Shown: positions 36,322 to 41,158 of the stretch, one piece after another
How the letters are laid out: each line of letters begins with the position of its first letter
How positions within the stretch are numbered: position 1 is the first letter of the stretch
From: Oharaeibacter diazotrophicus
Lineage (GTDB): Bacteria; Pseudomonadota; Alphaproteobacteria; Rhizobiales; Pleomorphomonadaceae
NCBI RefSeq assembly: GCF_004362745.1
Contig: NZ_SNXY01000006.1
Location: 744,001 to 808,000, forward strand
Reading direction: 5' to 3'
DNA: 64,000 bases
The notes under the pieces: model-generated
Databases searched by the model: none
Told to the model about the DNA's origin: nothing
What the model saw: the letters and a program-made list of their open reading frames with translations, nothing else
Program-made: the position numbers and the translations under genes

Positions 36322-37758
36322 TCAGATGTGGATCGCGCGACCGTAGGCCGAGAGCACGCTCTCGTGCATCATCTCGGACAGCGTCGGATGCGGGAAGACC
36401 GTGTGCATCAGGTCCTCCTCGGTGGTCTCGAGCTGCATCGCCACGACGAAGCCCTGGATCAGCTCGGTGACCTCGGCGCCGATCATGTGGGCGCCGATCA
36501 GTTGGCCGGTCTTGGCGTCGAAGATCGTCTTGACGAGGCCCTCGGGCTCGCCGAGCGCGATCGCCTTGCCGTTGCCGACGAACGGGAAGCGGCCGACCTT
36601 GACGTCGTAGCCCTCTTCCTTCGCCTTCTTCTCGGTGAGACCGACCGAGGCGACCTGCGGGTGGCAATAGGTGCAGCCCGGGATCTTGCGCTTGTCCATC
36701 GGGTGGACGTGCTTGCCGGCGATCGCCTCGATCGTCAGCACGCCCTCGTGCTCGGCCTTGTGGGCGAGCATCGGCGGGCCGGCGACGTCGCCGATGGCGT
36801 AGACGCCCGGCACGTTGGTGCGGCCGAGGCCGTCGGTGACCACGCAGCCGCGTTCGATCTTCACGCCGAGCTTCTCGAGGCCGAGATTCTCGATGTTGCC
36901 GACGACGCCGACGGCCGAGATGACGCGGTCGACGGTGATCTCCTGCTTGGAGCCGTCCTTGAGCTCGACGGTGGCGGTGACGTCGTCGGCGCCCTTCTTC
37001 AGGCCGGTCACCTTGGCCTCGAGCAGGATCTTCATGCCCTGCTTCTCGAAGCGCTTCCTGGCGTGCTCGGCGATCTCGTGGTCCTCGACCGGCATCACCT
37101 GCCCCATCACCTCGACCACGGTCACCTCGGCGCCCATGGTGCGGTAGAAGCTGGCGAACTCGATGCCGATGGCGCCGGAGCCGACCACCAGCAGCTTCTT
37201 CGGCATCGTCTCGGGGACCATCGCCTCGAAATAGGTCCAGACCAGCTTGCCGTCGGGCTCGAGCCCGGGCAGCACGCGCGGGCGGGCGCCGGTGGCGACG
37301 ATGACGTGCTTGGCCTTGTAGGTGCCGGCGCCGAGCGCGCCGCGCGGGGCGGGGTTCGGCTTGCCGTGCTCGGTCTCGGCGGCGGCGGCGACCTCGACGG
37401 TGCCCGGCGCCGACAGCGCGGCGCGGCCCCAGATCACGTCGACCTTGTTCTTCTTCAGGAGCCCGCCGACGCCGGCGTTCAGCTGCGCCGACACCCCGCG
37501 CGAGCGCTTGACGATCGCGGCGGGATCGAAGCCGACGCCCTGCACGGTCAGCCCGTAGGCCTCGGCGTGGGTGGCGTAGTGGTAGACCTCGGCCGAGCGC
37601 AGCAGCGCCTTGGTCGGGATGCAGCCCCAGTTCAGGCAGATGCCGCCGAGGTGCTTGTTCTCGACGACGGCGGTCTTGAAACCGAGCTGCGCCGAGCGGA
37701 TGGCGGTCACGTAGCCGCCGGGCCCGCCGCCGATGACGATGACGTCGTAGTCGGACAT
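36322..37758 (-). CDS. lpdA: Dihydrolipoyl dehydrogenase (E3)
   Basis: This 478-residue FAD enzyme reoxidises dihydrolipoyl groups of the pyruvate dehydrogenase complex with NAD. The redox-active disulfide is in GGICLNWGCIPTKALLRS (two cysteines five apart), and the C-terminal catalytic HPTLSE is present. It has no N-terminal lipoyl domain. It belongs to the leftward pdh cluster but is separated from pdhC by the DUF559 gene, whose stop is only 6 bp upstream of this start. Confidence 0.96.
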   Translation of the reverse strand: MSDYDVIVIGGGPGGYVTAIRSAQLGFKTAVVENKHLGGICLNWGCIPTKALLRSAEVYHYATHAEAYGLTVQGVGFDPAAIVKRSRGVSAQLNAGVGGLLKKNKVDVIWGRAALSAPGTVEVAAAAETEHGKPNPAPRGALGAGTYKAKHVIVATGARPRVLPGLEPDGKLVWTYFEAMVPETMPKKLLVVGSGAIGIEFASFYRTMGAEVTVVEVMGQVMPVEDHEIAEHARKRFEKQGMKILLEAKVTGLKKGADDVTATVELKDGSKQEITVDRVISAVGVVGNIENLGLEKLGVKIERGCVVTDGLGRTNVPGVYAIGDVAGPPMLAHKAEHEGVLTIEAIAGKHVHPMDKRKIPGCTYCHPQVASVGLTEKKAKEEGYDVKVGRFPFVGNGKAIALGEPEGLVKTIFDAKTGQLIGAHMIGAEVTELIQGFVVAMQLETTEEDLMHTVFPHPTLSEMMHESVLSAYGRAIHI

Positions 37759-37764
37759 GTCTCG

Positions 37765-38220
37765 TTATCCCTTGGGTTTTCGACGCGGGAGGCGGGAGCC
37801 GCTACCCTCCCCCTTGCGGGGAGGGTCGACCGCCGGAACGGCGGGCGGGGTGGGGTCGGCGCCGTGCTCCACGATCTTTTGGAAGATTGTGTCGAGAACC
37901 CCGTCGAGATTCTCGGTGAGTTCGTTGTTCCAGAAACGCAAGACCTCGAAGCCGCGACTCTCGAGCCACGCGTCGCGGACACGATCCTTCGCACCGTCGT
38001 CGTGGCCATGGTGATCGCCGTCGAGCTCGATCACCAGCCGCCCGGCGAGCCAGGCGAAGTCCGCGATGTAGGGTCCGATCGGCGCCTGCCGCCGAAAGTT
38101 GGCGCCATACGGGCGCAGGTCCCGCAGTTTGGTCCAGAGCAGGACCTCGTGCCCCGTCATGTCCGCGCGCAGACGCCTCGCCCGGTCTCGCGTGACGGAG
38201 TCGATCGAGGTCCGCGGCAT
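37765..38220 (-). CDS. DUF559 (PD-(D/E)XK-like) endonuclease-domain protein
   Basis: This 151-residue protein has the DUF559 domain at about residues 10-120: MTGHEVLLWTKLRDLRPYG, FRRQAPIGPYIADFAWL, LVIELDGDHHGHDDGAKD and FEVLRFWNNEL. The IADF...VIELDG pattern fits the restriction-endonuclease-like fold. Related proteins are widespread in this order but have no established role. The last ~30 residues (PPAVPAVDPPRKGEGS and on) are not part of the domain: they are the translation of repeat copy C. The gene sits between pdhC and lpdA and is bracketed by inverted repeats C and D, so it looks like an insertion into the pdh operon that keeps the reading direction. Confidence 0.85.
   Translation of the reverse strand: MPRTSIDSVTRDRARRLRADMTGHEVLLWTKLRDLRPYGANFRRQAPIGPYIADFAWLAGRLVIELDGDHHGHDDGAKDRVRDAWLESRGFEVLRFWNNELTENLDGVLDTIFQKIVEHGADPTPPAVPAVDPPRKGEGSGSRLPRRKPKG
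37804..37857 (+). repeat. REP-like two-hairpin repeat, copy C (inside DUF559 3' end)
   Basis: Stem 1 is ACCCTCCCC/GGGGAGGGT (9 bp, loop CTTGC); stem 2 is CCGCC/GGCGG (loop GGAAC); then GGGGTGGGGTC. It overlaps the 3' end of the DUF559 gene and encodes its tail. It is inverted relative to copy D. Confidence 0.82.
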
Positions 38221-38263
38221 CGCCAATCCCTCTCGGAAGAAGTCACCGGCTCGCGGGTGGAAG

Positions 38264-38316
38264 CCACCCCACCCCGGAATGCTGCGCATTCCGACCCTCC
38301 CCGCAAGGGGGAGGGT
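38264..38316 (-). repeat. REP-like two-hairpin repeat, copy D (upstream of DUF559)
   Basis: Stem 1 is identical in sequence to that of copy C. Stem 2 is GGAATGC/GCATTCC (7 bp, loop GCA on the minus strand), entirely different from copy C yet perfectly paired; then GGGGTGGGG. It lies 43 bp upstream of the DUF559 start, between it and pdhC. Confidence 0.82.
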
Positions 38317-38396
38317 ATTCGTGTGCGGCACCGGCGCGGCCGGAACTCCGAGAGGATCCCCGCCGGGCGAAACGTCCCCGTCCCGCCCTCGCCGGC

Positions 38397-39740
38397 TCAG
38401 ACCAGCATCGAGAACGGCTTCTCGACGTAGCCCTTGAAGGCTTGGACCAGCTGCGCGCCGAGCGCGCCGTCGACCGCGCGGTGGTCGGTGGAGAGCGTGA
38501 CGCTCATCACTGTGGCCACCGCGAGCTGGCCGCCCTTGACCACCGCGCGCTGGTCGCCGGCGCCGACCGCCAGGATGGTGGCGTGCGGCGGATTGATGAC
38601 GGCGGCAAAGTCCTTCACCCCGAACATGCCGAGGTTGGACACCGAGGTGGTGCCGCCCTGGTATTCTTCCGGCTTCAGCTTGCGGTCCTTGGCGCGCTTG
38701 GCGAGGTCCTTGATCTCGTTCGAGATCTGCGACACCGGCTTCTTGTCGGCGCCGCGGATGATCGGTGTGATCAGGCCGCCCGGGATCGACACGGCGACGC
38801 CGACGTCCACGACCTTGTGGCGGAGCATGCCGCCGTCGGTCCACGACACGTTGGCGTCCGGCACCGACCGCAGCGCGAGGGCGTAGGCCTTCACGACGAG
38901 GTCGTTGACCGAGAGCTTGTAGGTCGGCTTGCCGTCGACCGTCGGCGCGGCGTCGTTGAGCTGGGTGCGCAGCGCCAGCAGCGCGTCGAGCTCGATGTCG
39001 ACCGTCAGGTAGAAGTGCGGGACGGTCTGCTTCGACTCGGTGAGCCGCCGCGCGATCGTCTTGCGCATACCGTCGTGCGGGATCACCTCGTAGCTGCCCG
39101 GCTCGAACAGCTTCAGCGTCATCTCGTCCGACGGGCCGGTCGCGAGCGCCGGCTTCGGCGCGGGGGCCGGAGCGGCGGCGGCCGGGGCCGGCGCCGGGGC
39201 GGCCGCGGCGGGCTTGGCACCCGGCTCGGCCTTCTCGACGTCGCGCAGCACGATGCGGCCGTGCGGGCCGGAGCCCTTGACCGCGGCGAGGTCGACGCCC
39301 TTGTCCTTCGCCACCCGGCGGGCGAGCGGCGAGGCGAAGATGCGGCCGCCCTCGGCCTTGGCCGGCGCAGACGCCGCGGCGGGAGCCGACGCGGCCGGCG
39401 CCGCGGGCGCCGGAGCGGGAGCCGACGCGGGGGCCGTGGCGGGCGCCGCCTCGGCCTTGGCCGGCGCCTTGCCGGCGCCGGCGGCCGCGACGTCCTCGCC
39501 CTCGGCGGCGAGCAGCGCGATCACCGCGTTGACCGCCACGTCCTGGGTGCCCGCGGGCACCACTATCTTGGCGACGACGCCCTCGTCGACGGCCTCGACC
39601 TCCATGGTGGCCTTGTCGGTCTCGATCTCGGCGATGACGTCGCCGGACTTGACCGTGTCGCCCTCCTTGACGGTCCACTTGGCCAGATTGCCCTTCTCCA
39701 TCGTGGGAGAGAGCGCCGGCATCAGGATCTCGATCGGCAT
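38397..39740 (-). CDS. pdhC: Pyruvate dehydrogenase E2, dihydrolipoamide acetyltransferase
   Basis: This 447-residue E2 subunit has one lipoyl domain (lysine in [17 protein letters not shown], about residue 43), a long Ala/Pro linker, a peripheral-subunit-binding domain ([16 protein letters not shown]) and a catalytic core ending with the active-site [14 protein letters not shown]. It transfers acetyl groups to CoA. The ATG at 39740 gives the [14 protein letters not shown] start shared with E1-beta. It is 17 bp after pdhB. Confidence 0.96.
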
Positions 39741-39757
39741 TGGTTTCCCTCCCAGGA

Positions 39758-41158
39758 TCACGCCGTGTAGGTCACGGCGCGGACCGCGTCGATGACTTCC
39801 TTGACGTTCGGCAGCGCCAGCTTTTCCAGGTTCGCCGCGTAGGGCATCGGCACGTCCTTGCCGGTGATCCGGGCGACGGGCGCGTCGAGATAGTCGAAGG
39901 CGTTGGCCATGATCTGGTAGGCGATCTCGGAGCCGACGCCCGACTGCGGGTAGCCCTCCTCGATCGTCACCACGCGGCCGGTCTTCTTGACGCTCTCGAC
40001 CACGGTGGCGACGTCCATCGGACGGATGGTCCTGAGGTCGACGATCTCGGCGTCGATGCCCATGCCGGCGAGTTCCTCGGCCGCCTTGACCGCGTAGGTC
40101 ATGCCGATCCCGAAGGTGACGAGCGTGACGTCCTTGCCGCGGCGGTGGATGCGCGCCTTGCCGATCGGCAGGACGAGGTCGTCCACCTTCGGCACCTGGA
40201 ACGACTGACCGTAGAGGATCTCGTTCTCGAGGAAGATCACCGGGTTGGGATCGCGGATCGCGGCCTTGAGCAGGCCCTTGGCGTCGGCGGCCGAATAGGG
40301 CTGCACCACCTTGAGGCCGGGGATCTGCGAGTACCAGGCGGCGTAGTCCTGGCTGTGCTGGGCGGCGACGCGGGCGGCCGCGCCGTTGGGGCCGCGGAAC
40401 ACGATCGGGCAGCCCATCTGGCCGCCGGACATGTAGAGCGTCTTGGCGGCCGAATTGATGATGTGGTCGATCGCCTGCATGGCGAAGTTGAACGTCATGA
40501 ACTCGACGATCGGCTTCAGGCCCGCGAAGGCCGCGCCGACGCCGAGGCCGGCGAAGCCGTGCTCGGTGATCGGCGTGTCGATGACGCGGCGGGCGCCGAA
40601 CTCCTGCAGCAGCCCCTGCGTGATCTTGTAGGCGCCCTGGTACTCGGCGACCTCCTCGCCCATGACGAAGACGTCGCCGTCGCGGCGCATCTCCTCGGCC
40701 ATGGCGTCGCGGAGCGCCTCGCGCACCGTCATCGTGACGTACTGGACGTCGGACGGCAGGTCGGGATCGGCGAGCGGCTCGGACTTCGGCTGCGCCGGTA
40801 CGCCCGAGACGGTCTCCTTCGTGTTCTCGACCGTCGCGATCTTGTCGCCTTGGGCAGGCGCGTCGATGGCGGTCGCAGGGGCCGGAGCGGCGTCGGCCTT
40901 CGGCGCGGCGGCCTCGCCCTCGCCCTGGATGCGGGCGATCGGGGTGTTGACCTTCACGCCCTCGGTGCCTTCCGGCACCAGGATCTCGGTCAGCGTGCCC
41001 TCGTCGACCGCCTCGACCTCCATGGTCGCCTTGTCGGTCTCGATCTCGGCGATGACGTCACCGGACTTGACGGTGTCGCCCACCTTCTTGGTCCACTTGG
41101 CGAGTTTGCCCTCTTCCATCGTCGGCGAGAGGGCCGGCATCAGAATGTCGGTCGGCAT
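39758..41158 (-). CDS. pdhB: Pyruvate dehydrogenase E1 beta subunit with N-terminal lipoyl domain
   Basis: This 466-residue subunit combines a lipoyl domain (1-80, [17 protein letters not shown]), an Ala/Pro linker and the E1-beta transketolase-like domains (from about 140, [30 protein letters not shown]). The lipoylated E1-beta is typical of alphaproteobacteria. With PdhA it decarboxylates pyruvate using thiamine diphosphate. Between it and pdhA lies an unrelated ORF, which is not the usual arrangement. Confidence 0.96.

Follow-up and report, generated by a model that had tools for sequence, protein, structure and literature searches.

The window, the 64,000-nucleotide stretch of DNA analysed here (C6:744001-808000 of a 5.0-Mb genome), contains a DUF559 (PF04480) nuclease gene at 37765..38220 on the minus strand, encoding a protein of 151 amino acids with a predicted PD-(D/E)XK fold of the Vsr/EDxHD type. 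Its host genes are pdhC (E2 component; 38397..39761, minus strand) upstream and lpdA (dihydrolipoyl dehydrogenase; 36322..37758, minus strand) downstream. The coordinates confirm the original prediction, made from the sequence alone, that the DUF559 gene lies between pdhC and lpdA and runs in the same direction. The protein reaches 117 bits (E = 4e-34) with the PF04480 profile, which is above the curated cut-off of 20.6, and its only profile matches are to PF04480 and the related MTES_1575 nuclease. The same 5.0-Mb genome has one more DUF559 gene, and the repeat that adjoins it is of a different type.

Two repeat copies, C and D, flank the gene in the window. Stem 1 of copy C (37804..37826, plus strand), defined by folding and genome counts, is made up of a pyrimidine arm, the loop CTTGC and a purine arm. 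It is followed by a second stem found by folding (37830..37844, plus strand; CCGCCG-GAA-CGGCGG) and by a purine tail, GGGGTGGGG (37847..37855, plus strand), which points toward the gene body and is the proposed third strand of a triplex. Copy D lies on the minus strand, with stem 1 at 38294..38316 (from the fold and the inverted arm), stem 2 (CGGAATGC-GCA-GCATTCCG, from the fold) at 38275..38293 and the purine tail GGGGTGGGG (CCCCACCCC on the plus strand) at 38267..38275, also directed toward the gene. That the two copies have opposite orientations, as had been proposed, is evident from their arms (37803-37828 and 38292-38317), which are 26 nt long, 100% complementary, inverted and 463 nt apart. 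Also as proposed, both copies have the same 9-bp stem 1 (ACCCTCCCC/GGGGAGGGT) with a 5-nt loop and share the end GGGGTGGGG, and their second stems (CCGCCG/CGGCGG and CGGAATGC/GCATTCCG) are unlike in sequence yet both pair. A further claim, that repeat C encodes the C-terminal tail of the protein, is borne out by translation: the 3′ part of the DUF559 frame (37768..37857, minus strand) coincides with this copy. Similar repeat-encoded protein tails are present at other DUF559 loci. In copies C and D alike, the purine tail mirrors the purine arm in antiparallel sense, T replacing A, and scores 0.89 in each. As single-stranded DNA, the two copies fold with energies of -21.1 and -18.8 kcal/mol (z of -3.2 and -4.5), calculated with a program that has triplexes outside its model.

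The exact stem pattern occurs at 66 sites in the source genome, compared with 0 for the reversed control. Among 50 stems listed there are 16 neighbour pairs, 115-170 bp apart, and these doublets are arranged head-to-head with their tails inward; in other words, they have the ends of the DUF559 unit with the gene missing. Doublets are found at many unrelated intergenic sites, and the repeat is therefore a genome-wide REP family, often in doublets. Among the sites listed, the window holds only the two copies that flank the gene, and the chance that a random gene unit has one of the 66 stems within 100 bp on each side is approximately 2e-6.

DUF559 genes and repeats across genomes

The repeats are not placed at random with respect to DUF559 genes. 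A pyrimidine-arm hairpin is present within 250 bp of 62 of the 63 DUF559 loci analysed in Pseudomonadota, a set made up of best-scoring matches in which divergent family members are consequently under-sampled, while none of 30 control loci with small GIY-YIG nuclease genes has such a hairpin within that distance. Hairpins lie on both sides of the gene at 32/63 loci and on one side only at 30/63. Their number falls off steeply with distance from the DUF559 gene (136, 14, 10, 5, 3, 0, and 1 in successive 200-bp bins), and of the nearest REPs on either side, 81 of 102 have their tail directed toward the gene. Hairpins are also found near the DUF559 genes of Neisseria gonorrhoeae, Sinorhizobium, Azospirillum, and Shinella.

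The presence of a DUF559 gene also predicts the number of stems in a genome. For the order, 199 genomes were sampled, and the 74 that carry a full-length DUF559 gene were compared with 107 without one; the median number of stems is 30 in the former and 0 in the latter, and at least 10 stems are present in 56/74 versus 7/107 genomes (OR 44, p = 5e-23). When labels were shuffled within families, the observed value was reached in 0 of 5000 trials, and 15 of the 18 informative families agree. Outside Alphaproteobacteria, where 31 DUF559-positive and 156 DUF559-negative genomes from a sample of 213 genomes of the phylum were compared, the corresponding numbers with at least 10 stems are 19/31 and 7/156 (OR 34, p = 1e-12; 0/5000 in the within-family permutation, with 7 of 8 families in agreement). 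The fourteen stem-rich genomes that are DUF559-negative (7/107 in the order and 7/156 outside Alphaproteobacteria) would be compatible with gene loss or incomplete assemblies. By the one pattern counted, stems number fewer than 5 in eleven DUF559-positive genomes of the order, and since a single stem pattern was used, other repeat types are missed in the genome counts. The reading of the locus as a nuclease-associated REP-like element is thus supported by the 62/63 loci and by genome co-occurrence, and it extends beyond this locus. The reversed-pattern control is near zero in the genome surveys generally. Two genomes, G428 and G475, stand out with 25 and 23 occurrences of the reversed pattern, many more than in any other genome, a hint that they have a further repeat family.

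Paralogues were compared in three genomes that have several DUF559 genes, namely G234 (seven, 34-63% identical), G080 (eight, 40-69% identical), and G152 (four). Most are flanked by a distinct REP type, often inverted and with the tails inward, and the most similar paralogues have their REP type in common. Across 80 loci, the outer 9-nt arm is the same in the nearest protein neighbour at 38 loci, compared with 8.3 expected, and the Mantel rho between protein and repeat is 0.23 (0/1000 permutations). Within single genomes, protein and repeat are significantly correlated in G234 (p = 0.019), whereas G080 gives no significant correlation (p = 0.41); specificity between nuclease and repeat is therefore supported without being uniform. 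Divergent paralogues of one genome tend towards repeat types of their own.

In a purine-motif triplex, the tail is expected to mirror the purine arm, each A being faced by A or T. For 144 hairpins, the best match between arm and tail is 0.937, compared with 0.755 when flanks are shuffled. Tails match their own arm better (0.925) than swapped arms (0.849; 0/5000 permutations). The tails across the repeats are of the type GGGGTGGGG or GGRTGAGGG, and they covary with the arms: GGGAGAAGG arms go with GGATGAGGG tails, GGGAGAGGG with GGGTGAGGG, and GGGGAGGG with GGGGTGGGG. Judged by the criterion for BoxC and TMECO, the purine tail could serve as a third strand on stem 1, and in its sequence the repeat has the layout of a BoxC/PIT/TMECO intrastrand-triplex motif.

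Relation to known repeats and nucleases

BoxC/PIT/TMECO repeats are likewise intergenic, occur in inverted pairs and consist of a pyrimidine arm, loop, purine arm, loop, and purine tail (PMC4666352). TMECO was shown to form a triplex in vitro; triplex motifs are linked to genome instability, and no activity that confers mobility was reported in their vicinity (PMC4666352). These repeats are present in hundreds of bacterial genomes, and no source of their spread was known. What differs here is the link with a cognate nuclease. PMC4666352 is silent on DUF559, ycjD, and endonucleases, and searches of full-text papers (preprints and most subscription journals aside) yielded none that connects the DUF559 family with REPs, with BoxC, or with triplex motifs. 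By architecture the repeats belong to a known class, and the protein belongs to a known family; for their pairing into one system, no precedent was found in the literature searched.

In E. coli the DUF559 family is represented by ycjD, located between sapF and fabI. In the K-12 strain NCM3722, the stretch from ycjD to fabI has a TMECO-like sequence just downstream of ycjD, together with a degenerate copy. With ycjD present, a cognate nuclease makes the origin of triplex repeats testable in E. coli K-12. We considered ycjD as a clean insertion polymorphism and rejected this, because strains without ycjD carry eefRABCD there (PMC12817139), so that the site is not a simple pair of empty and filled states. 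In Klebsiella pneumoniae CP125156.1, a two-piece DUF559 match with no annotated gene (L099) lies between cysP and a gene for a Dyp-type peroxidase, with a triplex-type repeat directly downstream; from its sequence, this looks like a decayed unit. The PLSDB records NZ_CP141089.1, NZ_OL790696.1, NZ_CP119142.1, and CP125156.1 are chromosome-sized (2-5 Mb) yet labelled plasmids, and PLSDB plasmid counts therefore need care.

In its organisation, the system resembles REP/RAYT systems. There, too, short palindromes are repeated at many intergenic sites, frequently paired as inverted doublets, one protein gene lies between inverted cognate repeats, and several divergent systems, each with its own repeat type, are possible per genome. 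However, RAYT (TnpAREP) is an HUH Y1 transposase, whereas the window protein is a PD-(D/E)XK protein of the Vsr/I-Bth0305I type, and in place of the GTAG tag at the palindrome's foot there is a purine tail mirroring the purine arm (triplex architecture). Given the Vsr-like fold, the absence of an HUH Y1 match for the window protein and the tail instead of the GTAG tag, we rejected membership of the RAYT family: the system is organised like a RAYT system, but enzyme fold and tag set it apart.

CGTC-tagged REPs are a further REP class that is abundant in Alphaproteobacteria and forms head-to-head dimers, seemingly without a dedicated transposase (PMC3733652). They differ from the repeats described here in their tag (CGTC, then an AT-initial stem) and in their stem, and none is present within 400 bp of the 63 DUF559 loci. 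Small GIY-YIG genes (PF01541; among L201-L230) do adjoin CGTC-tagged REPs; with a relaxed pattern, a CGTC-type REP lies within 300 bp of 16/25 GIY-YIG loci versus 0/63 DUF559 loci.

The AlphaFold2 model of the window protein has a mean pLDDT of 89, and its Foldseek matches are 3hrl (E = 8e-7), 3r3p (4e-5), and 1vsr (3e-3). The first of these, NGO0050 from N. gonorrhoeae, is also the PDB entry nearest in sequence. Second among the fold matches comes the homing endonuclease I-Bth0305I (EDxHD), whose catalytic domain is the nearest one solved apart from NGO0050, itself uncharacterised. Vsr is a structural relative as well, and both I-Bth0305I and Vsr are DNA-cutting enzymes. An alignment of 34 sequences has E25, D54, E65, D67, H71, and D79, among others, as invariant residues. 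On the basis of the model, the protein is a predicted nuclease with a Vsr-like PD-(D/E)XK fold and conserved acidic and histidine residues. Values of dN/dS are 0.09-0.14 in four pairs of close homologues, indicating that the DUF559 gene is under purifying selection.

The known relatives differ in their setting. I-Bth0305I is part of a homing element, whereas the DUF559 gene is intergenic and has REPs on either side. Vsr of E. coli and VsrA of Caulobacter, the latter with a DUF559 domain, belong to the same superfamily and have the same fold, but Vsr works in mismatch repair that is tied to a methylase. VsrA causes an SOS response in a cytosine methylase mutant and has been proposed to work in very-short-patch repair (PMC12907096); the SOS response suggests that at least one member of the DUF559 family damages DNA in vivo. 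Palindromes, hairpins, and transposition are not mentioned in the text of the VsrA paper (PMC12907096).

Movement of the unit and its explanation

The DUF559 gene is not present between pdhC and lpdA in all relatives. The junction is empty, with 108-116 bp between the two genes, in ten family members, and G004 has a DUF559 gene there that is 58% identical. A second case is provided by G390 of genus g66, in which the unit occupies 604 bp between its host genes. This junction is contiguous without the unit in approximately 54 of 90 species of the genus, and each of the 30 contiguous loci compared has just 12-71 bp separating the host genes; several other species of the genus have REP doublets at the same junction. 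G390 has a second copy of the unit approximately 5 kb away, which is 86% identical over 589 bp. Homology between the two copies begins approximately 3 bp beyond one outer hairpin and ends approximately 20 bp beyond the other; their flanks are unrelated and their sites non-allelic. The duplicate and the empty sister sites are consistent with a whole unit that has moved or been copied. Inverted ends, a classical trait of insertion sequences, are present in the window and in G390. The original prediction noted no target-site duplication, which holds for the window, and none was seen in the G390 comparison, where the sister species have diverged too far to give a clean junction. On this lack of a duplication we provisionally set aside membership of the classical insertion sequences.

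From these data we infer that the nuclease may mobilise the unit. REP-DUF559-PER is, we think, probably a complete nuclease-bearing element, i.e., a REP/RAYT-like system with a different enzyme that would spread by repeat cutting. The scattered head-to-head REP doublets would then be non-autonomous versions of the DUF559 unit. The repeat, when single-stranded or extruded, would fold its stem 1 and purine tail to an intrastrand triplex in this organism, with stem 2 as the connecting loop. The DUF559 protein would recognise and bind its own repeat type and cut there, and host repair or replication would copy or move the REP-bounded unit, mostly to intergenic sites. The route could be homing-like or single-strand, leaving no clear target-site duplication.

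The unit could, alternatively, serve maintenance, DUF559 being a Vsr-like repair or resolving nuclease that removes or nicks triplexes and so keeps repeat-rich genomes viable, the position of the gene amid the repeats being due to regulation or to linked selection. This would agree with Vsr as a structural relative, with the VsrA SOS response and the very-short-patch repair proposal (PMC12907096), and with the tie between triplex motifs and genome instability (PMC4666352). A general repair enzyme, however, needs no place between inverted copies of its own substrate and would not be expected to have a separate repeat type for each paralogue, and the whole unit is duplicated, with REP-bounded ends and empty sites. 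We consider this explanation to be unlikely.

It is quite improbable that the protein acts by homing only, cutting repeat-free alleles or one REP, after which gene conversion would copy the unit to sites that are allelic or contain a REP, with genome-wide spread of REPs as a by-product of recombination from repeat to repeat. I-Bth0305I as the second-best fold match, the lack of a target-site duplication in the two comparisons above and the REP doublets that are often back to back, with spacings of 49-55 bp, are all in line with homing, but the two copies in G390 are non-allelic with unrelated flanks, and REP doublets are scattered over many intergenic sites that are unrelated. GC-rich genomes commonly have hairpins between genes, and the 3′ copies are close to the ends of genes, but the notion that these are terminators or attenuators next to an ordinary accessory gene that is intergenic by chance is highly implausible and was rejected on the GIY-YIG control (0/30 for this other small intergenic nuclease family, versus 62/63) and on co-occurrence that holds across genomes within families, with arm-tail covariation beyond the needs of a terminator and a reversed-pattern control near zero as further points against it.

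If the element reading is right, the DUF559 family, widespread and with little experimental work, would gain a function, and nucleases with no relationship to HUH transposases could run REP systems. The PD-(D/E)XK enzymes known to take part in transposition are mostly partners, as is TnsA, and a stand-alone role would be unusual. The sequence data suggest that the DUF559 family may spread a widespread repeat class without a previously known mobilising enzyme, E. coli included, and there is a real chance that the DUF559-REP system is a new class of mobiliser. More tentatively, and short of what we would call probable, REP-associated nucleases might be general mobilisers, with DUF559 acting on triplex REPs (including BoxC) by cutting triplex ends and GIY-YIG on CGTC REPs; two non-transposase folds would then independently have the role that RAYT has for GTAG REPs.

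Several minor observations concern the insertion sites. The pdhC-lpdA junction (37759-38396 in the window, and its equivalents in relatives) is an insertion hotspot with contents that differ by genome: a DUF559 unit in G000 and G004; a GIY-YIG unit in G002, G005, and G003 (L059, L063, and L064), with the GIY-YIG genes flanked by CGTC-tagged REPs; and other inserts in G001, G010, and G014. Other inserts are also found at the junctions of locus L041 in genus g55, for which there are five genomes only. Finally, the two G390 loci (L161 and L196) have a much longer second-stem region, which extends their inverted ends to approximately 100 bp.
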